Shown here: positions 25,247-44,739 of the stretch, piece by piece
Layout of the letters: each line of letters starts with the position of its first letter
How positions within the stretch are numbered: position 1 is the stretch's first letter
Source of the DNA: Syntrophomonas sp.
GTDB taxonomy: Bacteria; Bacillota; Syntrophomonadia; Syntrophomonadales; Syntrophomonadaceae
NCBI GenBank assembly: GCA_016841245.1
Contig: JAENZN010000004.1
Location: 1 to 64,000, forward strand
DNA length: 64,000 nt
Direction: 5' to 3'
The notes under the pieces: generated by a model
What the model saw: the letters and a program-made list of their open reading frames with translations, nothing else
Told to the model about the DNA's origin: nothing
Database searches by the model: none
Program-made: the position numbers and the translations under genes

Positions 25247-25279
25247 GTGATTATTAAGTTATTGGAATGGGGTGATATC

Positions 25280-25558
25280 ATGAAAGCAGCAATTAGACCA
25301 TCGGTAGATTTAAGAAATCATTACAGTGAAATCTCCAGGCAGTGCAGAGAATCAAGAGAAGCTGTTATTATTACTGTAAATGGACGAGGTGATACAGCAG
25401 TTCTTGGTTTACAGGATTACTATCAGATGAAATCGGAACTGGAACTACTTAGAACACTTGCAGAGGCGGAAGATGATGTTAAAAATGGGAGATTGGCACC
25501 AATGCAGGATTCGTTCGATGATCTTCGTGCATCTTTAATGGAGAGGAAGGATGGATGA
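25280..25558 (+). CDS. Phd/YefM-family antitoxin
   Basis: A 92-residue protein: IRPSVDLRNHYSEISRQC at the N terminus is the Phd/YefM DNA-binding fold, and VIITVNGRGDTAVLGLQDYY is the typical second strand region. The C-terminal tail (LLRTLAEAEDDVKNGRLAPM onward) would wrap the toxin. ATG 25280 follows GGGGTGATATC. It overlaps the toxin gene by 4 bases (ATGA). The palindrome upstream is its likely binding site. Confidence 0.85.
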   Translation: MKAAIRPSVDLRNHYSEISRQCRESREAVIITVNGRGDTAVLGLQDYYQMKSELELLRTLAEAEDDVKNGRLAPMQDSFDDLRASLMERKDG

Positions 25559-25866
25559 AGTACAAAATATTACGAACGGATAAAGCGGAGGAACAGCTCC
25601 GTGAAATCATTTTTTATATTGCCGATGATTCTGGTGATATTGATATTGCACTTGAATATTTAGACAAGATTGATACAGCAATTAATCGTCTTCAGGAGTT
25701 TCCAGAGTCGGGAAGTGTTCCCCGATATTCCATTCTGAAAAAGCAAGGCTATAGAGTAGTGATTGTTGAAAGGCATCTTGTTTTTTATAAGATAAATGAG
25801 GCAGATAAGTTAGTAATTATATATGCCATTGTAGATGGAAGAAGAGAATATCGGAATTTGATATAA
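25555..25866 (+). CDS. RelE/ParE-family toxin
   Basis: A 103-residue protein: YKILRTDKAEEQLREIIFYI, then YLDKIDTAINRLQEFPESGS, GYRVVIVERHLVFYKI and VIIYAIVDGRREYRNLI. This is a ParE/RelE fold with the conserved late Arg-rich strand. ParE members poison gyrase, RelE members cut mRNA at ribosomes; the extended helical N terminus leans to ParE. It is translated by overlap with the antitoxin gene. Confidence 0.85.
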   Translation: MKYKILRTDKAEEQLREIIFYIADDSGDIDIALEYLDKIDTAINRLQEFPESGSVPRYSILKKQGYRVVIVERHLVFYKINEADKLVIIYAIVDGRREYRNLI

Positions 25867-26315: not shown

Positions 26316-26453
26316 AGTACAGAAGGTAGCTGAAAGTACAAATTCACTCTGGCTGGTTTACAACGTGCAAAATCCTTGTTATGATGAAAACAAGGAAACA
26401 AAGAAAATTTAATAATTTTGCAATTGAAAGCATATTATAAAGGAAGAAGCCAT

Positions 26454-26828
26454 ATGGAACAGGCATCCGTTAGGAGTGAATCGAATATGGAAAGAAAAAT
26501 CATCAGTGTTTCAGTAAAACGTCAGGTGACGATTCCTCGAAAATATTTTGAAACGCTCGGCTTTAATAACGAGGCTGAATGCATTCTTCAAGAGGGCGGT
26601 ATCCTTATAAGGCCGATTCGGGATACAAACAGCGGAGAAATTTCCGAACAGATACTGGCTGATTTAATCTCTCAGGGGTTTTCAGGCCAAGAGCTGCTGG
26701 AAAGATTTAAGGAGCAGAGTAAAAAGGTACGCCCAGCCGTAAAGTTGCTCATTGCGGAAGCAGATGCCCTAGCAAAGAGCGGTGAGGGGAAAATATCGCT
26801 TGACGAAATGCTTCGCGCGGAGGATTAG
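26454..26828 (+). CDS. AbrB/SpoVT-like antitoxin
   Basis: A 124-residue protein with a swapped-hairpin AbrB domain: ERKIISVSVKRQVTIPRKYF and GFNNEAECILQEGGILIRPI (residues 12-60). The C-terminal helices (FSGQELLERFKEQSKK, and an acidic end ISLDEMLRAED) likely bind the toxin. ATG 26454 follows AAAGGAAGAAGCCAT; an inner ATG (MERKIIS) is possible. The toxin gene starts 3 bases after its stop. Confidence 0.8.
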   Translation: MEQASVRSESNMERKIISVSVKRQVTIPRKYFETLGFNNEAECILQEGGILIRPIRDTNSGEISEQILADLISQGFSGQELLERFKEQSKKVRPAVKLLIAEADALAKSGEGKISLDEMLRAED

Positions 26829-26831
26829 TAG

Positions 26832-27122
26832 ATGTATGAACTCCGTTTTGCGAAAGCAGCTGAGAAATATTTTAAAAAAATCAGGGAAAAAGGGTTAAAA
26901 ACAGCATACCGAACTGCTTTGCATAAGCTCAGCAGTGATCCGTATATCGGAGAGCTGAAAACCGGGGATCTGGCAGGAGTCTATGGTTATGATGTTTATT
27001 ATAGCAAGACCAATTACGAAATTGCCTATCGAATCTATGAAGAAGATGATAAGATTGTAGTTGTTATTCTTGCCGGAACAAGGGAAAATTTCTACAACGA
27101 ACTGAAACGCTATATGAAATGA
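26832..27122 (+). CDS. RelE-family toxin
   Basis: A 96-residue protein: ELRFAKAAEKYFKKIREKGL, HKLSSDPYIGELKTGDLAGV, YGYDVYYSKTNYEIAYRIYE and VVVILAGTRENFYNELKRYM. It fits the RelE/HigB-like endoribonuclease fold, with the late Gly-x-Arg-x-x-Phe-Tyr motif. Directly follows the AbrB-type antitoxin. A terminator lies 32 bp after the stop. Confidence 0.82.
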   Translation: MYELRFAKAAEKYFKKIREKGLKTAYRTALHKLSSDPYIGELKTGDLAGVYGYDVYYSKTNYEIAYRIYEEDDKIVVVILAGTRENFYNELKRYMK

Positions 27123-27203: not shown

Positions 27204-27395
27204 TTGATATACCTATTATTTTTATTCACAGTCCTGCTTGCAGTAGGGCTGTTCCTTATCCTGGCCGATGCGCTGAAACTGCCGACCCTCGGCGCGGCCA
27301 AAGCCATGCTAAGCGAAGGCAGGCAGGAGAAATAGACCGCCAAAACCATAGATGCATGGCTTATGTCGGCTGCTGTTAAGCTCGCAAAAGATTGA
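27204..27395 (+). pseudogene. N-terminal scrap of a TadB/TadC-like membrane protein
   Basis: TTG 27204 follows TGGAGGTGAAGCAAA. The frame reads LIYLLFLFTVLLAVGLFLIL then ADALKLPTLGAAKAML and stops at 27335. The family sequence continues in a shifted frame as AKTIDAWLMSAAVKLAKD to about 27395. One membrane helix is seen. It looks like the missing first part of the kind of protein whose C-terminal part is at 25906, but here it lies downstream of it, so order has been scrambled or two paralogous genes were cut. Confidence 0.5.
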
Positions 27396-27419
27396 CAAGG
27401 GGACGGAGTTGTTGACAAC
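27392..27419 (+). repeat. REP-like end, left side of RAYT 1
   Basis: TTGACAAGGGGACGGAGTTG with TTGACAAC after it. Its inverted counterpart lies just after the transposase gene at 28221-28248. The core CAAGGGGACGG recurs at 33881, 34781 and 38188. Confidence 0.75.
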
Positions 27420-27440
27420 ACCCTTAATCCAGGGTAATCT
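27412..27440 (+). promoter_or_regulatory. Promoter of RAYT 1
   Basis: TTGACA (27412-27417), 17-bp spacer, TAATCT (27435-27440). The -35 box is part of the REP-like repeat. The ATG of the transposase lies 19 bp after the -10 box. Confidence 0.6.
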
Positions 27441-27458
27441 TGGGTGGGGGTGTTTTTT

Positions 27459-28220
27459 ATGCCAAGAAAAGCAAGAAAAAGAAGCGAAACTGGGGTATAT
27501 CACATTGTAATGAGAGGGATAAACCGACAGAGTATTTTTGAAAATGAAGAAGATTATGAGAAATTCATGCAGACTATTTACAAATATAAAACAAAAAGTG
27601 GATATGAAGTCTATGCATACTGTTTAATGGGAAACCATGTACATCTTTTGTTAAGAGTAATTGAAGAACCGTTGGACCAAGTAATGCGCAGGATATGCGG
27701 AAGCTATGTTTATTGGTATAACAAGAAATATGATAGAATAGGAAATCTTTTTCAAGACAGATTCAAAAGTGAAGCAGTAGAAAAAGATGAATACTTAATA
27801 ACCGTACAAAGATACATTCATCAAAATCCCATTAAGGCCGGAATAGTGGGGAAGATTGAAGAATACAAGTGGAGCAGTTATCAAGAATATCTTAAAAAGC
27901 CTGAAGTGGTTGATATTGATTTCTTGCTGGAAATGTTTGATGATAACCGGGAAAATGCATTGTTGCGCTTCATTGAATTTAATAATGAAGTAAATGATGA
28001 TGTATGCCTGGAGCTGGAAGAAAAACGTGTAATAAAGGATGAAGAAGCACGGGATATCATAAGAAGAACGTGTAAAGTAAAAAATCCAATAGATCTTCAA
28101 AAAGCAGAAATAGCAGTTAGGAACAGCTGTCTAAAAAAGCTGAAAGAACAACATAAACTATCTATAAGACAAATTGAAAGGCTCACAGGCATCAATAGAG
28201 GGGTGATTTTAAAAGCATAG
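27459..28220 (+). mobile_element. Y1 transposase of the REP-associated (RAYT/IS200-like) type, copy 1
   Basis: A 253-residue protein: RKRSETGVYHIVMRGINRQS, AYCLMGNHVHLLLRV (the HUH metal-binding HxH pair), FQDRFKSEAVEKDEYLITVQ with the catalytic Tyr region, and YIHQNPIKAGIVGKIEEYKW. A helix-turn-helix-like tail (LSIRQIERLTGINRGVI) ends it. RAYT proteins nick and rejoin single-stranded DNA and are linked to REP palindromes. Inverted REP-like ends flank the gene. GGGTGGGGGTG gives a ribosome site before ATG 27459. Intact, so possibly active. Confidence 0.88.
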
Positions 28221-28248
28221 GGTGACAACAACCCCGTCCCCTTGACAC
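28221..28248 (-). repeat. REP-like end, right side of RAYT 1
   Basis: On the minus strand it reads GTGTCAAGGGGACGGGGTTG followed by TTGTCACC, the inverted partner of 27392-27419. Confidence 0.75.
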
Positions 28249-28355
28249 ACATAATTTTCGACAGAGTTAAGCACATTGAATATGGTAAATTAGTAGTACT
28301 ATTACAGAGAATACTGATATTAGAAATTATACTACAAAATAGGAGCATATCTGAG

Positions 28356-31300
28356 ATGATTCATGTTTCGGAAAAATACGAAATTTTGGAAACGGTTTAT
28401 CGTTCTTCCAGCAGCATTATTTTTCGTGCATTAGATATTACTACTAATAATAAGGTAATTTTAAAAACCCTAAACATAGACCTTTATGATATTGAGGCTC
28501 TCAATAAGCTGAAACATGAATACAAATTACTACAAGAATTACAGGGGGATTTTGTAGTAAAAGCCTTTGAATTTATAAGTATGGAAAACCGGTTTTCCAT
28601 GGTTATTGAAGATTTTGGAGCTATTTCACTGGCTCAATATATTGAAAGCAGCCAAATGGAAGTAAATGAATTTCTTAGTATCGCTATAAAAGTGTGTGAA
28701 TGCCTTGAAGTCATACACCAAAAAAATATTATCCATAAAGACATTAACCCATCTAATATAGTGTACAATCCTCGTACCGGCGTTATTAAACTGATTGATT
28801 TTGGTATTTCATCAGAATATTATTTTGAAAGCTTGCCGCTTATAAATCCAAATATTTTGGAAGGAACTATAGCTTACATGTCTCCCGAACAAACGGGAAG
28901 GATGAATAGACCAATAGATTACCGGACTGATTTCTACTCTCTGGGAGTCACTTTGTATGAACTAGCCACATTGCAACTACCTTTTGCTGCGATAAATCCA
29001 GCTGAAATGGTTCATTGTCATATTGCGGTTAATCCTAAGCCAGTGTGTGAAATAAACTCAGTTATACCTAAAGCTGTTTCTGCTATCATATCTAAACTCA
29101 TGTCAAAAATCCCTGAAGACAGATATAGAAGCTGCAAAGGTATTATTGCTGACTTAAAAAGATGTGCTGATAATCTGGATGAAAACCATGCTATGGAAGA
29201 ATTTAAACTGGCCTGCCAGGATATTTCGGGGTTATTCGAGATACCCAAAAAGTTATACGGGCGAGAATCGGAATTGAGTATACTTTTCAATAGCTTTGAA
29301 AACACACGCAGAGGCAATGCAGTATTTATATTTATTAGCGGCTATTCAGGGATAGGTAAGACCACACTGGTCAATGAATTACATAAGCCTATAGTAAAAG
29401 AGCATGGTATATTTGTATCGGGTAAGTTTGAACAGTATACCAGGAACAAACCATATTCAGCTATTTTACAGGCCATTGACCAATTTTGTGATTATGTTTT
29501 ATCTGAATCTGAGCGAGTAATAAAAACCTGGAAAAACCGAATATTGAAAGCGCTTGCTTCAAATGGAAGACTTATAAATGACGTTGTGCCTCGCATGGAA
29601 TTAATTATTGGGGTACAACCCGCTTTGCAGGAAGTTTCTCCTACTGAAGACCAGGCTCGATTTAAGCAGGCTATTAAAAACTTGATGCTGGCTATCTCCG
29701 AGTCTGAGTATCCGGTAGTTTTTTTTATGGACGATGTTCAGTGGGCGGATATAGCTTCACTGGATCTTATTGAAACCTTGGTATTGGATCAAAATACGAG
29801 AAAAGTGATGTTTATTGGTACATACCGGGACAATGAGGTTAATGCCTCACATCCTTTGTTAAGAAGTATTGAAAAGATTAATAAAAACAACGGAAATATA
29901 CAATATATTAAATTAGGAAACCTTAATATATCTGCAGTAGAGCAGATGATAGCTGATATTGTGAAGCAGCCAGAAGAGGAGGTCTTCTCACTTTGCAGGG
30001 TTATCTATAACAAAACCATGGGAAACCCTTTTTACACCAAACAAATCTTAGAACAATGTTATATAGACAATTTAATTTTTTATGATTTTACCCAAAATAG
30101 TTGGGCCTGGAAAACGAATAAGATAAATATGCATCATATTGCTGAAAATGTAGCCGATCATTTGATAAATAGAATCAATACCTTTCCAGACCTTACCAGG
30201 GAATTGATTTCAATAGCAGCCTGCATTGGGAATAGCTTCGATGACAGGATGCTGGCAGCTATATCCGGTAAAAACAGCCTGCTAATTAAAGAGGCGCTCA
30301 AACCTGCCGTTTCGGCAGAAATGATATATGTATCCGCAAATAAAAAAGGGGAAACTGAGGATAAACAGTTCACGTTTTGTCATGATAGATTTCAGCAAGC
30401 GGCCTATCAGAACTTATCAGAACAGTTCAGGCATTCAATTCATTTCAATATTGCCAGATATTATGAAAATATTATTGAAGAAGAAGGAATTTCAAATCTC
30501 TTTTTAATTGCTGAACATTATTCCAAGGCCCTGGATTATCTGCATTCTGCCCATGAAGTTGAAAAGGTAATAGAAATATTTTTCAGAGCAGCCCGGGCTG
30601 CAATTCTTTCCTCGGCATACACTACTGCCCGGCAATATCTGGAACTAATAATGGATATTGCCGGAGAAAAAGAGAAAAATAATTATTCTTTTTTAATGCG
30701 CCTGTATAGCGAATATCATCTGGTGCTTTACAGCCTGGCAGAATTTGAAGAAATGGATAAAATATATAATTTGATAGACAGAATAGTACATGATCCCCTT
30801 GATTTAGTAGATTCCTGCTGTATACAAGTGATTAGTTTATCCAATCGAAGCAGATTCAAAGAAGCCTTCATGCAGGGAACTGAGCTCCTGGGCAAGATGG
30901 GAGTATATTATTCTGAGGATGAGTTAACAGCTGTAATTGAAGAAAAAATTGATAAATATTATGAATATGAAAGAAGTGGCTTAGTTAAGAGTCTAGAACA
31001 AAGAGAAATGCTTAATGATAAACGGGGATCAGCTCTTGCCAAACTATTGAACAGGATAACACCGGCAGGTTGTTTTTTCAAACCCCTGGCTCAATATTGG
31101 GCCATTCTATCCAATGTCAATCTGTTAATAGAAAAAGGCTTTACACCATGGGGGCTGGAGTCTTCCGGTGAGTTAATTATGGTATTAATAGCTGCTAGAA
31201 ATGACTATTATAAAGGATATGAACTTGCCAAAAAAAGCATTCTTATAGCTGAAGAAAAGGGTTTAAGCAATGAATTATACAGGCTTTATCACCAGTTTGG

Positions 31301-33932
31301 ACTTTTTTCCTGTCACTGGTTTGAACCTCTGGAAAATGATATTTATTATGCTCATGAAGCCTATAAAGGAAATTTGCAGAAGGGAGAATTTGAATTTTCA
31401 TGTTTTAGTTATTTTACTTCACAGGCAGCTCTTTTGGAGATATGTGAATCCCTCTCAGAAATGCAGGATGAAGTGGCAGCTGCTTATACATTTGCAAGTC
31501 AAACCAACAATTTATTTGCTTTGTCATCTTTTGTAATTTTTCAACAGGTTTTAAAAGTACTAAGAGGGGAAACTTTCAGATACGGAAGCTTTAATGATCA
31601 AAATTTTTCAGAAAAACTGCATTGGCAGGAAATTGAGCACAATGCTATAGGCATATGTTATTACGGTATCTACAGCGCACTTTCAAATGTAATATTCGGT
31701 GATTATACGGCTGCTCTTTCATTTGCGGAGTCGGTAATACCGTATCTTCAGCATATGAGTGGGTTTTATACCACAGCCTTGCACTGTTTTTTATATTCTC
31801 TTTCTCTGTGCAAAATAATTGAAAACATGAACGATTCAGCCGCAATAATCGTTTTAGAAAAGAAATTGAATGATAACCAGGAATGGCTTAGACAAAGAGC
31901 ACATGATGCTCCTTTCAACTTCCAGCACTTTTATGATCTGATAGAGGCTGAAACAAAAGCCATTGAGGGAGATTATAAGGAATCCTTAAGATTATACGAA
32001 AAGGCTATTACGGGGGCCAGAGAAAATAGTAGACCTTATCATTACGCATTAGCATGTGAACTGGCTGGGCAGCGCTATATGCAAATAGGGGTAAACAATA
32101 TCGCAGCCTATTATATAAAAGAGGCCTATGCAAAGTTTTTATCCTGGGAAGCAACTGGCAAAACCGAATCAATGAAAGAACAATATCATCATATATTATT
32201 ACCTAAAATTGACGTAAAAAAGATTGAATTTTCTTCTGCAAGCAATAATACCAATTCTATAGATCTTGATGCGGTAATCAGGGCCAGCCAGGCTATTTCC
32301 GGAGAGATTGAAAGAAAAAAACTACTGAAAATATTGATGAACATCATCATAGAAAACTCCGGCAGCACTCAGGGTTGTATCCTGTTAAACGATAACAGCA
32401 GCTGGAGTTTGTCAAGCTATGAACTTATTAATGGAGAAGTTGAAATAATTATCGATGACATGATAATATGGCTCGATGATATAGATACTAAAACACTGGT
32501 TCCAGTTTCTATAATAACTTATGTTGCCAGAACCAGAGAATCGTTAATCATTGGTAGTGCTCAGGACAGCAGATTTATGTCAGATGAATATGTCAGGGTA
32601 AGAAAACCTGCATCACTGATGTGTTTTCCGATCATATCGCATAACACCTTACAAGGAATAGTATATTTAGAAAATGGCCTGTTAACTGAAGCCTATAACC
32701 AGGCACGATTGAAAGTATTAAATATACTGGCCTCCCAGGCAGCTATCTCCCTGGAAAACTCTTTTCTTTATTCCGAACTGGAAAAAAAGGTGGAGGAAAG
32801 AACCTTGGAGCTGCAAAAAGAAGTACTGGATCATAAAAAAACCGAGCAAGTTCTCCGCCAATCCGAAGAAAAGTTTTCAAACGCCTTTCATGCTATTCCG
32901 ATAATGATGATTTTGGCTACGGTTGATGAAGGACGATTCATTGATGTGAATGATGCGTTTTGCACAGGCACCAGCTTTAACCGTGAGGCACTTATTGGCT
33001 GTACCTCACTCGACATTGATCTTTTCAAAGATCCACAAAAAAGGCAGGATCTGAGAAATGAGCTGATGCAGTATGGCAAACTTGAAAATATTGACTTGGA
33101 AATACGCAATAAAACCGGGGAAATTCGTCAAGGTAAGATCTGGAGCAGATTATTTTACTATAATGAAAAACCATGTCATATAACAGGTTATATTGACATT
33201 ACCGAGCAGCAGCGGCTGGAGAAGGAAATGGCCCGCCTGGATCGGCTTAATTTGGTGGGAGAAATGGCGGCCAGCATCGGACATGAAATCAGAAATCCGA
33301 TGACTGCTGTCCGTGGGTTTCTCCAGATGTTAAAGGACAGGGAGAACTATAAAAAAGATTTTGCATATTTCAATATTATGATAGAAGAACTGGACCGAGC
33401 AAACGAGATCATTTCAGAATATTTGAACATGGCCAGGGATAAGAATGTCGACCTGCAGCCAAAATCCCTTGATTCAATTGTGAGATCTCTTTATCCGATG
33501 ATTCAGGCTGACGCCAATTATCAGGAAAAGAATGTTGAGTTGGATTTGGGTAACCCGACTACATCTTTAATTGACGAAAGTGAAATCCGCCAGATGATCC
33601 TGAATCTGGCTCGCAATGGGCTGGAAGCCATGTCACCCGGGGGAGTACTTACCATCGGAACAGCTTTTGAGGGAGACGAAATTGTGCTATTTGTCCAAGA
33701 TGAAGGTTACGGCATTGACCCCAATATTATGGAAAAATTAGGGACACCATTTATTACCACCAAGGAAAAAGGCACAGGTCTGGGCCTGGCAGTCTGCTAT
33801 AGTATTGCGGCCCGTCATCATGCTAAAATCGGGATTAAAACCGGCGCCAACGGAACAACCTTTTCAGTTTATTTTCAGAAGTGTCAAGGGGACGGTTCTC
33901 CTGACACCTTTTATTCCTTGGAGATAACATGA
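28356..33932 (+). CDS. Giant hybrid kinase: Ser/Thr kinase, AAA ATPase, GAF, PAS, histidine kinase
   Basis: An 1858-residue cytoplasmic signalling protein. Order: Ser/Thr kinase-like domain (1-280) with HKDINPSN near 127 and DFG near 148; AAA/NACHT-like ATPase with Walker A GYSGIGKTT near 328 and Walker B FFMDDVQWAD near 454; a helical TPR-like region (about 740-1290); GAF (1300-1480); coiled coil; PAS (1505-1620); HisKA with phospho-acceptor His near 1643 in GHEIRNP; and an ATP-binding domain with NLARNGLEAM, DEGYGIDP and GTGLGLAV. The glycine loop of the first domain is poor (VYRSSSSIIF) so its kinase activity is uncertain. No response regulator gene adjoins. I chose ATG 28356, which follows AGGAGCATATCTGAG. 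The last 17 residues come from a REP-like repeat. Such trifunctional proteins are known mainly in cyanobacteria, myxobacteria and some anaerobes. Confidence 0.88.
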   Translation: MIHVSEKYEILETVYRSSSSIIFRALDITTNNKVILKTLNIDLYDIEALNKLKHEYKLLQELQGDFVVKAFEFISMENRFSMVIEDFGAISLAQYIESSQMEVNEFLSIAIKVCECLEVIHQKNIIHKDINPSNIVYNPRTGVIKLIDFGISSEYYFESLPLINPNILEGTIAYMSPEQTGRMNRPIDYRTDFYSLGVTLYELATLQLPFAAINPAEMVHCHIAVNPKPVCEINSVIPKAVSAIISKLMSKIPEDRYRSCKGIIADLKRCADNLDENHAMEEFKLACQDISGLFEIPKKLYGRESELSILFNSFENTRRGNAVFIFISGYSGIGKTTLVNELHKPIVKEHGIFVSGKFEQYTRNKPYSAILQAIDQFCDYVLSESERVIKTWKNRILKALASNGRLINDVVPRMELIIGVQPALQEVSPTEDQARFKQAIKNLMLAISESEYPVVFFMDDVQWADIASLDLIETLVLDQNTRKVMFIGTYRDNEVNASHPLLRSIEKINKNNGNIQYIKLGNLNISAVEQMIADIVKQPEEEVFSLCRVIYNKTMGNPFYTKQILEQCYIDNLIFYDFTQNSWAWKTNKINMHHIAENVADHLINRINTFPDLTRELISIAACIGNSFDDRMLAAISGKNSLLIKEALKPAVSAEMIYVSANKKGETEDKQFTFCHDRFQQAAYQNLSEQFRHSIHFNIARYYENIIEEEGISNLFLIAEHYSKALDYLHSAHEVEKVIEIFFRAARAAILSSAYTTARQYLELIMDIAGEKEKNNYSFLMRLYSEYHLVLYSLAEFEEMDKIYNLIDRIVHDPLDLVDSCCIQVISLSNRSRFKEAFMQGTELLGKMGVYYSEDELTAVIEEKIDKYYEYERSGLVKSLEQREMLNDKRGSALAKLLNRITPAGCFFKPLAQYWAILSNVNLLIEKGFTPWGLESSGELIMVLIAARNDYYKGYELAKKSILIAEEKGLSNELYRLYHQFGLFSCHWFEPLENDIYYAHEAYKGNLQKGEFEFSCFSYFTSQAALLEICESLSEMQDEVAAAYTFASQTNNLFALSSFVIFQQVLKVLRGETFRYGSFNDQNFSEKLHWQEIEHNAIGICYYGIYSALSNVIFGDYTAALSFAESVIPYLQHMSGFYTTALHCFLYSLSLCKIIENMNDSAAIIVLEKKLNDNQEWLRQRAHDAPFNFQHFYDLIEAETKAIEGDYKESLRLYEKAITGARENSRPYHYALACELAGQRYMQIGVNNIAAYYIKEAYAKFLSWEATGKTESMKEQYHHILLPKIDVKKIEFSSASNNTNSIDLDAVIRASQAISGEIERKKLLKILMNIIIENSGSTQGCILLNDNSSWSLSSYELINGEVEIIIDDMIIWLDDIDTKTLVPVSIITYVARTRESLIIGSAQDSRFMSDEYVRVRKPASLMCFPIISHNTLQGIVYLENGLLTEAYNQARLKVLNILASQAAISLENSFLYSELEKKVEERTLELQKEVLDHKKTEQVLRQSEEKFSNAFHAIPIMMILATVDEGRFIDVNDAFCTGTSFNREALIGCTSLDIDLFKDPQKRQDLRNELMQYGKLENIDLEIRNKTGEIRQGKIWSRLFYYNEKPCHITGYIDITEQQRLEKEMARLDRLNLVGEMAASIGHEIRNPMTAVRGFLQMLKDRENYKKDFAYFNIMIEELDRANEIISEYLNMARDKNVDLQPKSLDSIVRSLYPMIQADANYQEKNVELDLGNPTTSLIDESEIRQMILNLARNGLEAMSPGGVLTIGTAFEGDEIVLFVQDEGYGIDPNIMEKLGTPFITTKEKGTGLGLAVCYSIAARHHAKIGIKTGANGTTFSVYFQKCQGDGSPDTFYSLEIT
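33881..33908 (+). repeat. REP-like end, left side of RAYT 2, inside the kinase gene end
   Basis: GTGTCAAGGGGACGGTTCTC followed by CTGACACC. Its inverted copy is at 34781-34808. Here it encodes the final residues of the kinase (KCQGDGSPD). Confidence 0.85.
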
Positions 33933-33968
33933 GTATAGGCATTCTTTGGATTATAGAGGAGGGAGCCC

Positions 33969-34763
33969 ATGCCCAGACAACAGCGGAAATTAAGCGAAAC
34001 CGGAATTTATCATGTAATAATGCGGGGAAACGAAAGAAAAAACCTGTTTTACGATGAAGAAGATAAAAACAGATTTATTCAAATACTGTTTAATAAAAAG
34101 AAAGAGAAAGGTTTTATAATTTACGCATATTGCCTTATGGATAATCATATCCACCTACTGCTAAAAGAAGGTGCAGAAGGGATAGCGGCCATGATGAAAC
34201 GTATCAATGTCAGCTATGCCTATTACTTCAATCAAAAGAACCATCGAGTAGGTCACGTCTTTCAAGATCGCTTTATAAGTGAAACTGTAAATGATGACCG
34301 ATATTTACTCGCTGTTATTCGATACATCCATAACAATCCTGTAAAAGCAGGGATTGTGGCGAAACCCGGGCAGTACAAGTGGAGCAGTTACAACTTTTAT
34401 ATTTTTCAACACAATTCGGAAACAAACATGATAAATACAGATTTCATCCTGTCTATTCTGGCAAATGATCGGGAAACAGCAATAAAGGAATTCAGACTAT
34501 TTTCGATGGAGAAAGATGAAAGAGAGTTCCTTGAGGTTGATGAACAAATCATCTGGACAGCAGAAACAGGAAAGACTTATCTGGAGGAATATCTTAAGCA
34601 GGAATGGCCAGGTAAAAGCTTGCGAGAATTAATTAACAACAAAGATACCCGTGCAGCACTGATAATCCACCTGAAGTTAAACACAAAACTGTCCATCAGG
34701 GTGATAGCTGATTTATTGGAGATCAATCGAGGAATAGTACAGAAAACTAAGGCCAAGAGATAA
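33969..34763 (+). mobile_element. Y1 transposase of the RAYT type, copy 2
   Basis: A 264-residue protein related to copy 1 but clearly diverged: RQQRKLSETGIYHVIMRGNE, AYCLMDNHIHLLLKE (HxH), VFQDRFISETVNDDRYLLAV and YIHNNPVKAGIVAKPGQYKW. The tail LSIRVIADLLEINRGIV matches that of copy 1. ATG follows AGAGGAGGGAGCCC. Inverted REP-like ends flank it. Its insertion cut the 5' part off the gene whose last codons remain at 34810-34923. Confidence 0.88.
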
Positions 34764-34780
34764 CTGCCACCTGGCGAAAA

Positions 34781-34808
34781 GGTGTCAGAAGAACCGTCCC
34801 CTTGACAC
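34781..34808 (-). repeat. REP-like end, right side of RAYT 2
   Basis: On the minus strand it reads GTGTCAAGGGGACGGTTCTT then CTGACACC, the near-perfect inverse of 33881-33908 (one base different in the core). Confidence 0.85.
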
Positions 34809-34809
34809 T

Positions 34810-35242: not shown

Positions 35243-35662
35243 CTATTTAGTATCTTCTGCTTTAAGCTCAGTTACATCAGCGGCACTTATTTCAAATGAA
35301 CCAATTATTGTTTTGCCATCCTTGTCATATAATGGTATTTCACGCGATTGAGCCTTATTTGTTTGAGTTATTGTAATAGCTTCCTCAAGAGTTTTCGGCA
35401 TATCACCATTCAAATCAGATTTCTTAACATATCCAGATTCACCTTTAGTACCACATGCCCAAATCAGATCAGGCTCAGTTTCTATAGATTCGGCTTTCAT
35501 ACTGGAACCATATGTTTCTCCGTTTTCATTAACCTGGTATTTAGGTGCTGAATTAGTATTCTCAGCCATTACCAAATTTACTCCATATGATCCTACTATA
35601 ATTCCCACACATAAAGCACTACTAATGGCTATAATCCGTAATCCTGTAGCTTGCATTCCCAT
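35243..35662 (-). CDS. Small membrane-anchored or exported protein of unknown function
   Basis: A 139-residue protein with a hydrophobic N-terminal segment (LRIIAISSALCVGIIVGSYG) that could be a signal peptide or anchor. The outside part contains WACGTKGESGYVKKSDLNGD and a C-terminal REIPLYDKDGKTIIGSFEI strand pair. Similar exported proteins occur in Bacilli and Clostridia; no function is known to me. ATG follows AAGGAGGGATATTAA. It lies 13 bp downstream of the next exported-protein gene, so both are co-transcribed. Confidence 0.65.
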   Translation of the reverse strand: MGMQATGLRIIAISSALCVGIIVGSYGVNLVMAENTNSAPKYQVNENGETYGSSMKAESIETEPDLIWACGTKGESGYVKKSDLNGDMPKTLEEAITITQTNKAQSREIPLYDKDGKTIIGSFEISAADVTELKAEDTK

Positions 35663-35675
35663 TTAATATCCCTCC

Positions 35676-36134
35676 TTAATATGGATTAACAGTTGGGCTT
35701 TGATATGTAGAATATGTATTATATCCGTCCCCATTATATGCTGCTGTATATCCTTTGCTATAAATTGCTACTCCACTCGAAACATCTTTTGATCCAATTA
35801 TACTATATACTTCATTGCTGTTATAGGCCCACGACCCTGTCCACATTAATTGACCATCATGCTTATATATATAAGGACGAACACCCATATATCCAACAGG
35901 TATAAGAGTAAGATCTGCAGTGGAAGCAACGACCCGGGAAGATACACCCATATCAAGATCGCTATAAGCTATTGCACGGTTTTTATAACTATACCCATTT
36001 ACTGGGCCATAATTTTTCCAGTCACTATAAGCAGTGACTGCATATGCCATTATCGAAGTAAAACCAAGAAAGATACCTAGTAACAATGCGCAAACTATCA
36101 ATTTAACATTATTATTCCTAATTGTCGAAACCAT
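35676..36134 (-). CDS. Secreted protein of unknown function, Tyr/Gly/Asn-rich
   Basis: A 152-residue protein from the preferred ATG (MVSTIRNN), which follows AAAGGAGGAAAGTTTA; a start 11 codons upstream lacks a site. A clear signal peptide (LIVCALLLGIFLGFTSIMAYA) precedes a mature part of about 120 residues with DWKNYGPVNGYSYKNRAIAY, VPVGYMGV-like IPVGYMGVRPYIYKHDGQL and SKGYTAAYNGDGYNTYSTYQ. It has no cysteines in the mature part and no lipobox. Similar proteins are found in Gram-positive genomes with small exported partners. A cell-surface or bacteriocin-like role is possible but unproven. Confidence 0.65.
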   Translation of the reverse strand: MVSTIRNNNVKLIVCALLLGIFLGFTSIMAYAVTAYSDWKNYGPVNGYSYKNRAIAYSDLDMGVSSRVVASTADLTLIPVGYMGVRPYIYKHDGQLMWTGSWAYNSNEVYSIIGSKDVSSGVAIYSKGYTAAYNGDGYNTYSTYQSPTVNPY

Positions 36135-36822
36135 TAAACTTTCCTCCTTTAACTGTACAAATTGCAAAAAAAAGTTTAAGTCTCATCTCTTTTCTGGTGA
36201 ATTTTGTATATTATTATTAAATATACCATAATTAAAATATATTAACAATTTTAAATATATGATTTCTTTACCTGACGCTTTTTTACGAACCCATGGTCAA
36301 GTATTCTCCGAGGGGTTCAGGTACCTCTGTATCTGGGCAGGGGTGCACAGGCATTTACAGATATTTATTGGCAATGATGTTCATTGATAATTTTATATAT
36401 CTGTATTAAAACAATTGTATTGTTTACTTATACTAATATTGACTAAAAGTTATGTAAAATCTATTGCATTCCACCTCCAAAATATCTACCGGCAATATGT
36501 TATATTTTGCTTAAGCTTTACTATAAAGTAATATATTACCATATTATTGTAAATGGTTTATGTCTGAAATCCCGGATTTGGTACCTGAAATCCCATATGA
36601 CTTATTATTTACTCTGAGCAAAGACTAATTTTCTACCTAATAACAGTGGTATTACAGTTACCTCTAACTGTTTATATCTTTTTGGTAAACCATCTCTACT
36701 AAGCAGTCAGTTTCCTCCCCTCAATCTGTTACTTTAATCCTAATTTGCAATAGGATTATTTTCCCCTTTTTATGTTTTTATAAAATCCATGGAACCTTTT
36801 GGTCTTCTAAATCGAGTATAGT
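36135..36822. other. AT-rich intergenic region
   Basis: About 690 bases with very high A+T, probably holding the promoter of the exported-protein pair and the lost left end of the IS1182-type element. GAAATCCCGGATTTGGTACC with GAAATCCCATATG at about 36567-36600 is a short imperfect repeat. I find no credible gene. Confidence 0.4.
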
Positions 36823-38163
36823 ATGAGAGTTTTATTTATAAAGAAGCGAAAATATGCTAAAAAGATTTTCAGTGATTATACTCATAACAGTTTGATCAAT
36901 CCTGAAGATGACCTTCCCGACCCCAGCCTACTTGCCAAGTTCAGAACCAAACGGCTTAAAGAAACCAGCCTGGATGACATTATTAAAGAAGTGGTCCGTC
37001 AATGCGTAGAAAAAGGCATAATCAAAAGCAACAATGGCATTGCCATAGATACCACTCACATTGAAGCAAACACAATCAAAAAAGTACCCGAGCGCATTAT
37101 GAAGCAGTTGGCTAAAAATATATTTAAAGCCATGGGGCAGGAGGAATATGAAATACCGGATTATACCCAGATAGAAGATCATGGTACAGCCAAACAAGTT
37201 ATGAAGGATTATCTGGAAAACCTGATAGAACAAACTGGTGACGAAAACTCAGAGGAAGTCAACCAAGCAGTCCAGGAGGCTCAGGAAATCTTAGAAAGCG
37301 ATCTATTCATAGAACAAAAAGGCATCCGTTCCCTGGTAGACAAAGATGCCCGAGTAGGGCACAAAAGCAAGACCCAGAATTTTTACGGCTACAAGGCGGA
37401 AATATGTCAAACTACTGACGGTAGTTTAATAACCAGCGTTACTGTAGAACCGGGTTCGTATGTTGATGGCAGCAATTTTAAAGAGCATCTTGAAGAAACC
37501 CGAAAATCCGGATTGACCGTAACCGGAGTATATGGCGACAAAGCCTATTTCCGTCCCGACATCCTTAACCTGATCAAGGAAAAAGGAGCTTCAGCCTATA
37601 TACCGGTAAGCGCCAGCGCTTACAAAATCGACGAAGAGTTGTTCAGCTACAACAAGGACAGTGACCAATGGTTTTGTATCATGGGAAATGAAACAGTAAA
37701 GGTAAAATCCAAAATACGTGAACGAAATGGTCAAAAAAGGAAGTACCTGGATTACAGCTTTGGACGTGAGCTCTGCCGGAACTGTCCTCATCGAAGCGAA
37801 TGCATGGGAAAGAGTAAACGGATAGCCAAGTTAATGACAATCAGCGTAAATACCCCTGAACTATATGAGTACAGCCAAAGAGCAAAAACCCCGGAATTTC
37901 TTGAGGAATACCGTAAGCGAGCGAAAATCGAACCCAAGAATGCAGAATTAAAAAGATTCCATGGACTAGACCGAGCCAGAGGCTACGGTCTACGAAGTAT
38001 CGGCATTCAGGCCAAACTAACGGCCCTGGCGGTAAATCTAAAGCGGATAGCCAAGCTGGTATCCGCTTTAAAAGGATTAAACTCTTATTTTCTGCGCTGT
38101 TCATCATGTTGCTTATTGATTATCCGACCAGCTTGGATTGGCTCTGACGTCCAAACGGTTTAA
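36823..38163 (+). mobile_element. IS1182-family transposase, N-terminally truncated
   Basis: A 446-residue DDE transposase. It joins the family at LINPEDDLPDPSLLAKFRTK and contains GIAIDTTHIEANT (first Asp), LVDKDARVGHKSKTQNFYGY, VTGVYGDKAYF (second Asp) and KRAKIEPKNAELKRFHGLDR (the Glu). A CxxCxxxxxC zinc-like CRNCPHRSEC is present. Family members carry about 80 further residues upstream; here the start (KKRKYAKKIF) is unrelated, so the element is 5'-truncated and probably inactive. The C terminus runs beyond the last family block and ends just before a REP-like half repeat. Confidence 0.85.
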
Positions 38164-38187
38164 AAAGGCTACTTTTTCAGTGGTTTC

Positions 38188-38205
38188 GAACCGTCCCCTT
38201 GACAC
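38188..38205 (-). repeat. REP-like half element
   Basis: On the minus strand GTGTCAAGGGGACGGTTC, identical to the start of the RAYT 2 end. No transposase of that type adjoins. The direct plus-strand neighbour ACTTGACAC repeats its edge and supplies the -35 box of the T-box promoter. Confidence 0.75.
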
Positions 38206-42833: not shown

Positions 42834-44201
42834 CTATTTCATATTGATCGTCCAGTTGCCATTCACAACGAAGACCGGCCAGGAGATATCCAGATCAAAG
42901 GCATCTACATCCTCATCGAACTCCAGAGTAACGATAGCTTGGTCACTGCTGAATTCGGCTGATATCTTCTTGATGTCATCGCTGAACATGCTGAAGCGGT
43001 TGATGCTGACATATTTATCAACTCCGGTGTTGAGCTGGAATGTAAGTTGAGCCGATGTAGGAGAGAGTCGTTTAATGTTCTCGATTATCGCCTTTTGAGC
43101 AAGAAGATCCACCTCCTGATGGAGTATGGTCTCCCCATCTGTGGGGATGTTGATTCTAACGTTAGCCACGGATTTTTCATAAGCGGCCATTAGGGCAGGC
43201 AGATTAATCGTAAGCCGGCTGTCTTGGGCGGTATTTATTTCAAAGGTGGTTATAGGCCTGGCCTTGGCATCGGCCGGGACGGTTAGCTGGTGTTTGCCCC
43301 CGGATTCATCAGTAGCATAGATTTCCACTGTCTCGTAACTGGTTGCAGAACCCACCACACCCCCTTTGTCAAGATTTTCGAGCGTGGTTTTGACAGTTGC
43401 CGCGACTGGTTGGCCGAAGGCAGCAAGTTTCATATTCTTATCCTTAAAAGCCGCGATGATCTGAACAGCTTGCTGTCCGTTATTTTCTATACTATTTACT
43501 CCGACCGTGACCAGATCGACTTTGTTTGACTCCGACTGGCCGACCGCCAGCTTCTGGGTGTCGTCAAGGCTCTTGGCTTCATTTAGAGTGATCGAATATG
43601 TTTTACCGCCCACCAGCAAATCAAAGGCTTGAAATGGTTTGATGTTAAAGTTTTTTTCCTTCTCATTTACAAAACTCATAAAAAACTTGTTGCTAGCATC
43701 CTTAGAATAGACACCTATAACACCCATATTATGTATGACATACTGAATATTTGGATCATCCTTCGGGATTATTTTCATAGGCCCCAGAACATTAGGGCTT
43801 AAATTTGAAGTACATTCCATATCAAGCCTGCCTTCGGAAACCATAATGCTGTCGATAGTCAAGTTGTCGTCTATCACCAGGTTGTTTTTCAAGTAATATG
43901 CCTTGCCATCCACCACGGTTGAATATATTGGGGTCTTGTTGAAAAAGCTCTTCATTGCCTGGGATATCTCATCAGCATACACAACAGTATTAATACCTAT
44001 GAGGCACAAGCAAACCGCTGCGGCGTATGGCAGGCGCTTTTTCAGTTTGGCTTTCCTGTTGTGCTTTTGAAGTTTTTGGTGTGCTTGTCTATTTATCGAT
44101 TCTATATCGCATTCAACTTCGTCCATGAGAATGTCTATCTCTTTTTCTATCAGATCATCGTCAATATTGCTCAGCATCGCGATTATTTTGTTTTCATTCA
44201 T
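42834..44201 (-). CDS. DUF4179-type membrane protein, probable anti-sigma factor 2
   Basis: A 455-residue protein with a basic cytoplasmic N-terminal part (about residues 1-55: KLQKHNRKAKLKKRL), one membrane helix (YAAAVCLCLIGINTVVYA) and a large outside part with beta domains. The layout matches that at 23810 with about 100 more residues. The outside half has two repeated domains in tandem, roughly 90-240 and 250-450. It overlaps the sigma gene by 8 bases. It likely restrains the sigma factor at 44194. Confidence 0.75.
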   Translation of the reverse strand: MNENKIIAMLSNIDDDLIEKEIDILMDEVECDIESINRQAHQKLQKHNRKAKLKKRLPYAAAVCLCLIGINTVVYADEISQAMKSFFNKTPIYSTVVDGKAYYLKNNLVIDDNLTIDSIMVSEGRLDMECTSNLSPNVLGPMKIIPKDDPNIQYVIHNMGVIGVYSKDASNKFFMSFVNEKEKNFNIKPFQAFDLLVGGKTYSITLNEAKSLDDTQKLAVGQSESNKVDLVTVGVNSIENNGQQAVQIIAAFKDKNMKLAAFGQPVAATVKTTLENLDKGGVVGSATSYETVEIYATDESGGKHQLTVPADAKARPITTFEINTAQDSRLTINLPALMAAYEKSVANVRINIPTDGETILHQEVDLLAQKAIIENIKRLSPTSAQLTFQLNTGVDKYVSINRFSMFSDDIKKISAEFSSDQAIVTLEFDEDVDAFDLDISWPVFVVNGNWTINMK

Positions 44202-44739
44202 AGTTCAAACCCTCCTTTATAAGCTTTCTTCCCCTCAGGAGCCTGTTATCAACAGCAGCCCGAGACAGATTGAAAGCCCTTGCAAGATCGCTGATTTCTT
44301 CACCCAGGAAAAATTTCCTGACAAATATCTCCCGATCGGTCTTTTCAAAGGAATTGATTATTTTAATGACCTGTTCCTGATCTTGTCTCAGGAAAATCTG
44401 ATTTTCGAGGTTGATATCATCCTTTATCTCGACATCTTCTATGTCCATGACATTGTTCAGGCGTTTCTTGCGTCTGCATGTTAGCGCTTTGTATTTTGTC
44501 AGAATCAACAGCCATGTTCTAAAGTTTGCCTTTTCTTCATCAAACTCAGAGATCTTTACCCATGCATCAAGAAATACATCGGCCACACATTCCTCTATAT
44601 CTTCCTTGCTGTGCGATCCTGACAAAATATTGTAAGCAAGGCTGTAAATCGTTTTTGTGTATTTGCCTATCATATACTCATAGGCAGCCGAATCCTTGTT
44701 TCTTAACTTCTGGACAAGCTCACCCTGCGAATACTGCAA
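44194..44739 (-). CDS. ECF-like sigma factor 2
   Basis: A 181-residue sigma-70 family protein: region 2 AAYEYMIGKYTKTIYSLAYN, EDIEECVADVFLDAWVKI and FRTWLLILTKYKALTCRRKK; region 4 IINSFEKTDREIFVRKFFLG with ISDLARAFNLSRAAVDNRLL. TTG start follows GAAGGGGGAGAGGCT. Same length and layout as the sigma factor at 23263 but clearly different in sequence, so a second pathway rather than a recent copy. Confidence 0.87.
   Translation of the reverse strand: MQYSQGELVQKLRNKDSAAYEYMIGKYTKTIYSLAYNILSGSHSKEDIEECVADVFLDAWVKISEFDEEKANFRTWLLILTKYKALTCRRKKRLNNVMDIEDVEIKDDINLENQIFLRQDQEQVIKIINSFEKTDREIFVRKFFLGEEISDLARAFNLSRAAVDNRLLRGRKLIKEGLNYE

Follow-up and report, generated by a model that had tools for sequence, protein, structure and literature searches.

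Among the closest described systems are the cyanobacterial proteins of the HstK or cbSTKIII family (PMC2176072), including Alr2258 (HstK) and Alr0709/Alr0710 (Pkn40/41), which combine an N-terminal Ser/Thr kinase domain, one or more GAF domains, and a C-terminal histidine kinase (HK). By domain order (Ser/Thr kinase-AAA_16-GAF-HK), the fungal hybrid kinases Chk1 of Candida and Mak2/Mak3 of S. pombe are alike, and a strong phenotype has been reported for Chk1 with its kinase and AAA_16 domains deleted (PMC9069115); their HK is a hybrid one that includes a receiver and serves a eukaryotic phosphorelay. The other relevant group comprises the Spo0-type orphan kinases, i.e., KinA-E and Dtox_1918 of Desulfotomaculum acetoxidans, in which a PAS domain precedes HisKA and six specificity residues follow the phospho-acceptor histidine. 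These residues read TAGFQL (KinA and KinE), TVGFQL, TSGFQI, TGGFQL, or TTGFQM (Dtox) in kinases of the phosphorelay, and NVSAQV, NISAQL, or SVGLQL in kinases acting directly on Spo0A (PMC6136694, Table 1).

In the present study, the window (the whole 64,000-nucleotide stretch analysed, positions 1 to 64,000 of contig JAENZN010000004.1 of Syntrophomonas sp., GCA_016841245.1) was found to encode an 1858-residue protein with features of both groups. Coordinates of the gene, its parts, and its flanks are listed in Table 1.

Table 1. Features of the kinase gene and of the flanking RAYT units (window coordinates)
Feature	Position	Strand	Basis or remark
Whole ORF, 1858 aa / 1858 codons	28356..33932	+	ORF listing, Pfam, sister comparison
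Ser/Thr kinase domain, residues 17-258	28404..29129	+	Pfam PF00069 Pkinase, E 9.7e-36
AAA_16 / STAND-type NTPase, residues 299-487	29250..29816	+	Pfam, E 1e-34
wHTH-like segment of STAND arm, residues 668-738	30357..30569	+	PF22560, 21.7 bits, under Pfam cut-off 27
Long segment taken to be a helical-repeat (TPR-like) sensor arm, residues 761-1300	30636..32255	+	Inferred; TPR_12 sub-threshold, E 0.08
GAF domain, residues 1321-1466	32316..32753	+	Pfam
Coiled-coil linker LYSELEKKVEERTLEL...	32754..32855	+	Junction where family members' outputs diverge
PAS domain, residues 1505-1600	32868..33155	+	Pfam
HisKA, residues 1635-1694, phospho-acceptor H1643, code TAGFQM	33258..33437	+	Pfam, E 4e-14; PMC6136694 Table 1
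HATPase_c, residues 1740-1841, N, G1, and G2 boxes intact	33573..33878	+	Pfam, E 3e-17
Last 18 codons, from left REP and leader of downstream RAYT unit	33877..33932	+	Sister-kinase homology stops at 33876; from 33880 it is the sister's RAYT unit
Upstream RAYT unit, RAYT ORF 27444-28220 between 25-nt inverted REPs	27393..28247	+	78.6 bits, just under cut-off
Downstream RAYT unit (RAYT2), RAYT ORF 33969-34763 between 33-nt inverted REPs (97%)	33880..34809	+	86.1 bits

Pfam searches agreed with the ORF coordinates and the domain order (Pkinase-AAA_16-GAF-PAS-HisKA-HATPase) given in a preliminary description of this DNA, whose domain list lacked the approximately 800 residues between AAA and GAF. 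The start codon (ATG, 28356) is preceded by a plausible AGGAG, and the ortholog in a sister species begins at the same codon. The AAA_16 domain carries a Walker A motif (GYSGIGKTT at residue 329) and a Walker B motif (FFMDDVQW at residue 456). Over the helical region, Pfam returned nothing beyond the sub-threshold TPR match, no solved relative was found by phmmer with residues 291-1298, and an AlphaFold model of residues 1-755 with two sequences as input had a pLDDT of 31.6. The sister ortholog, in a same-genus genome (G003, apparently Syntrophomonas sp. B5_bin.5), is a single 1848-aa ORF of the same architecture with 83% identity, and the dN/dS between the two was 0.23 overall and 0.13-0.27 in every domain, indicating a maintained gene with every part under selection.

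The protein is a member of the trifunctional Ser/Thr kinase/ATP-binding protein/histidine kinase (HstK-type) family. Its N-terminal Pkinase domain is followed by AAA_16 with both Walker motifs, its platform (kinase to GAF) aligns with the named plasmid members at 99-100% coverage and 29-34% identity, and it ends in HisKA and HATPase, though of other descent than those of the remaining members. Two of these plasmid proteins bear the NCBI name 'trifunctional serine/threonine-protein kinase/ATP-binding protein/sensor histidine kinase'. Plasmid-borne cyanobacterial members of the HstK/cbSTKIII group show homology over the full length of the platform (~32-34% identity), and the motif HKDINPSN...SPEQTGRMNR is common to this group and the 1858-aa protein, which differs from them in its Spo0 sporulation-type output HK and in its host, a Syntrophomonas relative within the Bacillota that has sporulation genes. 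The combination had been described as rare outside cyanobacteria and myxobacteria, a view at odds with the recovery of the platform from 33/398 genomes sampled across the phylum, as well as from 221 plasmid records, mainly of rhizobia, Pantoea, Paraburkholderia, Azospirillum, and cyanobacteria, many of them from Pseudomonadota. At lower ranks it is patchy, occurring in 2/5 Syntrophomonas genomes and 4/63 genomes of the order (the class-level search covered the same 63 genomes), so that the platform may have been transferred. Its presence in no more than 2/5 Syntrophomonas genomes also means that sporulation itself does not require the 1858-aa protein, a point against a role in this process.

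In the platform tree, three Bacillota proteins (L070, L071, and L074) are nearest, of which L071 and L074 group with the Syntrophomonas pair (99/90). They differ from the 1858-aa protein in having a diguanylate cyclase-type (GGDEF) output, read from sequence, in place of its histidine kinase. Cyanobacteria were rejected as the nearest source of a transferred platform on the basis of these relatives. The patchy platform is compatible with the transfer that the preliminary description proposed to examine by phylogeny, but the nearest relatives are Bacillota GGDEF proteins and the HK third is native. Other relatives of the platform end in a LuxR-type HTH, a HisKA_3-like kinase, a hybrid kinase with a receiver (these read from sequence), or an EAL domain (annotated). 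With such varied outputs behind it, the platform is a general-purpose sensor to which different outputs are attached, the joint being the coil that follows the GAF domain.

The output of the 1858-aa protein resembles the sporulation kinases in several respects. The six residues after H1643, TAGFQM, fit the pattern T-x-G-F-Q-L/M, a PAS domain lies ahead of HisKA, and among solved structures sporulation kinase B (KinB; 3d36) comes closest to the HK. The preliminary description had noted the lack of an adjacent response regulator, and indeed no receiver domain lies closer than 54 kb (distances were taken from the match coordinates of the genome searches); this absence is expected, since the orphan state is normal for Spo0-type kinases. 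Across the genome, all eight HKs with a T[AST]G[FY]Q[LMI] code are orphans with the nearest receiver at 4.9-71 kb, while each of the other 16 HKs examined has a receiver within 1.8 kb and none of these was found to have the phosphorelay code (the H-box of three was unread). The remaining seven coded orphan kinases (G000, contigs C21, C17, C3, C6, and C48), with open frames of 512-1075 residues, likely represent a large set of sporulation inputs in one genome. Moreover, the genome encodes the downstream components: the Spo0F gene is immediately followed by fba and tal, the Spo0B gene lies between rpmA and obg (SPOB_a match, E 7e-16), and both Spo0A and SpoIVA are present. A point on the other side is the Spo0F code, which reads QGVLELD versus QGILEVD, with two conservative changes. 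Unlike the known Spo0-type orphan kinases, the 1858-aa protein is fronted by a kinase-STAND-GAF platform of ~1480 residues. No mention of such a platform on a sporulation kinase was found in the sporulation-kinase literature searched, the limited reach of which leaves novelty unproven, and no functional study of such kinases in Syntrophomonas was found in the literature searched.

The two parts of the protein have different relatives. Over the last ~360 residues, stand-alone kinases encoded in the same genome and elsewhere in the Syntrophomonadaceae share about 45-58% identity with it, while the platform is 24-34% identical at most to anything outside the Syntrophomonadaceae. In the maximum likelihood tree of histidine kinase cores, the 1858-aa protein and its sister nest among stand-alone orphan-type kinases of the Syntrophomonadaceae (96/94), and every other platform protein in the tree has its HK placed elsewhere. 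Judged from this tree, the PAS-HisKA-HATPase output is foreign to the HstK-type family and native to the Syntrophomonadaceae lineage, showing a chimeric origin. A comparable case was found in another genome of the same bacterial family (G432), which has two platforms, G432:C121 (L137) and G432:C175 (L139 and L140), that are 74-91% identical to each other per domain and 52-65% identical to that of the 1858-aa protein. One of them is followed by a PAS domain and a TSGFQM-coded kinase, the other by PAS-PAS and an unrelated kinase (26-33% identity over PAS and HK); by these alignments, the two are platform paralogs whose C-terminal third was swapped after duplication. The Spo0-type HK of G432 did not group with that of the 1858-aa protein, and forcing them together cost 55 log-likelihood units. 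A single origin of both Spo0-type outputs was rejected by the AU test (p 0.001, a somewhat optimistic value as the group was chosen after the tree), and the plain reading of the trees is that the platform would have taken up, or exchanged, Spo0-type outputs more than once.

Taken together, the reading that we favour, with reasonable though far from full confidence, is that the 1858-aa protein is an HstK-type cytoplasmic sensor whose output was replaced by a Spo0-type orphan sporulation-kinase module predicted to feed Spo0F-Spo0B-Spo0A, and that it probably relays a signal into the spore-formation decision. The STAND ATPase and its helical arm would be the target of a ligand or partner; the oligomeric state would be set by ATP binding or hydrolysis, with the N-terminal kinase domain as gate or regulator, and the GAF domain and coiled coil would transmit this state to the PAS-HisKA-HATPase dimer. 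H1643 would then autophosphorylate and pass the phosphoryl group to Spo0F, Spo0B, and Spo0A, such that the platform signal would contribute to the sporulation decision. The sequence itself establishes the architecture, the motifs, the selection, the descent of the output, its code, and the Spo0 components, while every signalling step, including phosphotransfer, the direction of regulation, a ligand, and any Ser/Thr kinase activity, is inferred, and phosphotransfer to Spo0F in particular from six residues of a code that is partly degenerate. That PAS-HK exchange at the coiled-coil joint has connected a STAND/Ser-Thr-kinase platform to the endospore phosphorelay on more than one occasion, providing an NLR-like (STAND-gated) input, is in our view about as likely as not.

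To our knowledge, the triggering signals of sporulation kinases are largely unknown, and here a large ATPase sensor with an attached kinase domain appears to enter the same phosphorelay as these kinases. The HstK-type family is known; what appears to be new is a sporulation-kinase output on such a platform, whose outputs elsewhere are of the cyclic-di-GMP, transcription-factor, or ordinary two-component kind. Natural swap controls are available as like platforms with differing outputs in one genome, and as Spo0-type outputs with and without the platform. The family thus offers a tractable case for studying the gating of histidine kinases by STAND platforms and the addition of inputs to an old developmental switch.

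The sporulation assignment has to be weighed against other targets of the HK. The protein could be an ordinary HstK-type dual kinase whose HK serves an unlinked, non-sporulation response regulator, the likeness to sporulation kinases reflecting descent of the HK module only. Several family members adjoin ordinary response regulators, the genome has 52 receiver matches, and nitrogen source and iron affect how cyanobacterial members are expressed (PMC2176072), all in keeping with such a role; nevertheless, we consider it unlikely, given that TAGFQM fits the phosphorelay code, which neither a receiver-linked HK with a read H-box nor the HKs of other HstK-type family members carry. Alternatively, the HK could phosphorylate Spo0A itself and bypass Spo0F and Spo0B, as happens in Clostridium acetobutylicum. 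This would suit an orphan HK whose host is a Clostridia-like spore former, where direct transfer is known (PMC11210211). Such a route is more doubtful still, as the direct kinases have codes of the NVSAQV, NISAQL, or SVGLQL type and both Spo0F and Spo0B are present in their standard neighbourhoods.

A further question concerns the N-terminal domain, which may be a pseudokinase acting as a purely structural gate for the STAND ATPase, an alternative that is compatible with a Spo0-type output and that we rate at slightly under an even chance. The weak glycine loop from which the preliminary description had suggested a pseudokinase was confirmed, as the 1858-aa protein has no GxGxxG; however, none was found at this position in any aligned family member, so that its absence is not special to this protein. 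Many members of the family have lost catalytic residues; by contrast, in the alignment of 40 members the PEQTG segment is retained in 37-38/40, the Walker K in 39/40, and the Walker B D in 40/40. Given this retention despite the catalytic losses, the conserved role of the kinase domain across the family is probably coupling to the ATPase. The sister ortholog has DFD in place of DFG. In contrast, the 1858-aa protein keeps K37 (the VAIK lysine), E55 (helix C), D129 (catalytic), N134, and D148 (DFG) as well as the signature SPEQTGRMNR, its kinase domain is under purifying selection (dN/dS = 0.22), and catalytic residues are also kept in the nearest platform relatives (L070, L071, and L074) and in most cyanobacterial members examined. 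With the glycine loop alone missing, and missing family-wide, the pseudokinase suggestion does not appear to hold for this member.

Finally, the gene might be a decaying or misassembled fusion produced by REP/RAYT activity. As previously described, it is boxed by two RAYTs, the flanking ORFs scoring just below and above the 80-bit cut-off of the REP-associated transposase model and each lying between inverted REPs. Across the genome there are 50 occurrences of the REP core AAGGGGACGGTTC and none of the reversed control. Homology to the kinase gene of the sister extends from 28251 to 33876, to within three bases of a REP at both sides, giving the joins 28247-28251 and 33876-33880. Both ends of the gene thus abut REPs, the gene lies at another site in the sister, and the C-terminal tail has been altered by a REP, which may also count against the sporulation reading. 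Against this stand the intact 1858-codon frame, the dN/dS of each domain, and the intact 1848-aa ortholog; furthermore, the genome contains one copy of the RAYT2 unit, making repeat-driven misassembly unlikely. On these grounds decay or misassembly was rejected, and we regard it as highly improbable.

In the sister, the kinase gene lies between mdh and a purF-like gene, with the RAYT2 unit ~5 kb away, and in a third genome (G001) both of these genes are present with no kinase between them. The differing sites and the REPs at both ends indicate that the kinase gene has moved between the sister species with REP-bounded joins, possibly by REP-mediated relocation of a passenger gene. Several other elements were observed in this part of the window. 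Just left of the RAYT-kinase block are tandem toxin-antitoxin-like pairs (25247-25866 and 26418-27122), comprising Phd/YefM with ParE and a ParE-like toxin with a partner of no assigned family. Between RAYT2 and an IS1182-family transposase, the minus strand (35243-36167) encodes two small proteins that have signal-like N-termini and lack Pfam matches, a site at which the sister has no matching DNA. Within 36823-38200, the IS1182-family transposase ends just ahead of a solitary REP on the minus strand (38188-38200), and it is exactly at this REP that synteny with the sister begins again. In addition, an ECF-type sigma factor and, after it, a large protein that matches no Pfam family (42834-44739, minus strand) fall within the interval from mdh to the purF-like gene, where the sister has the kinase gene.
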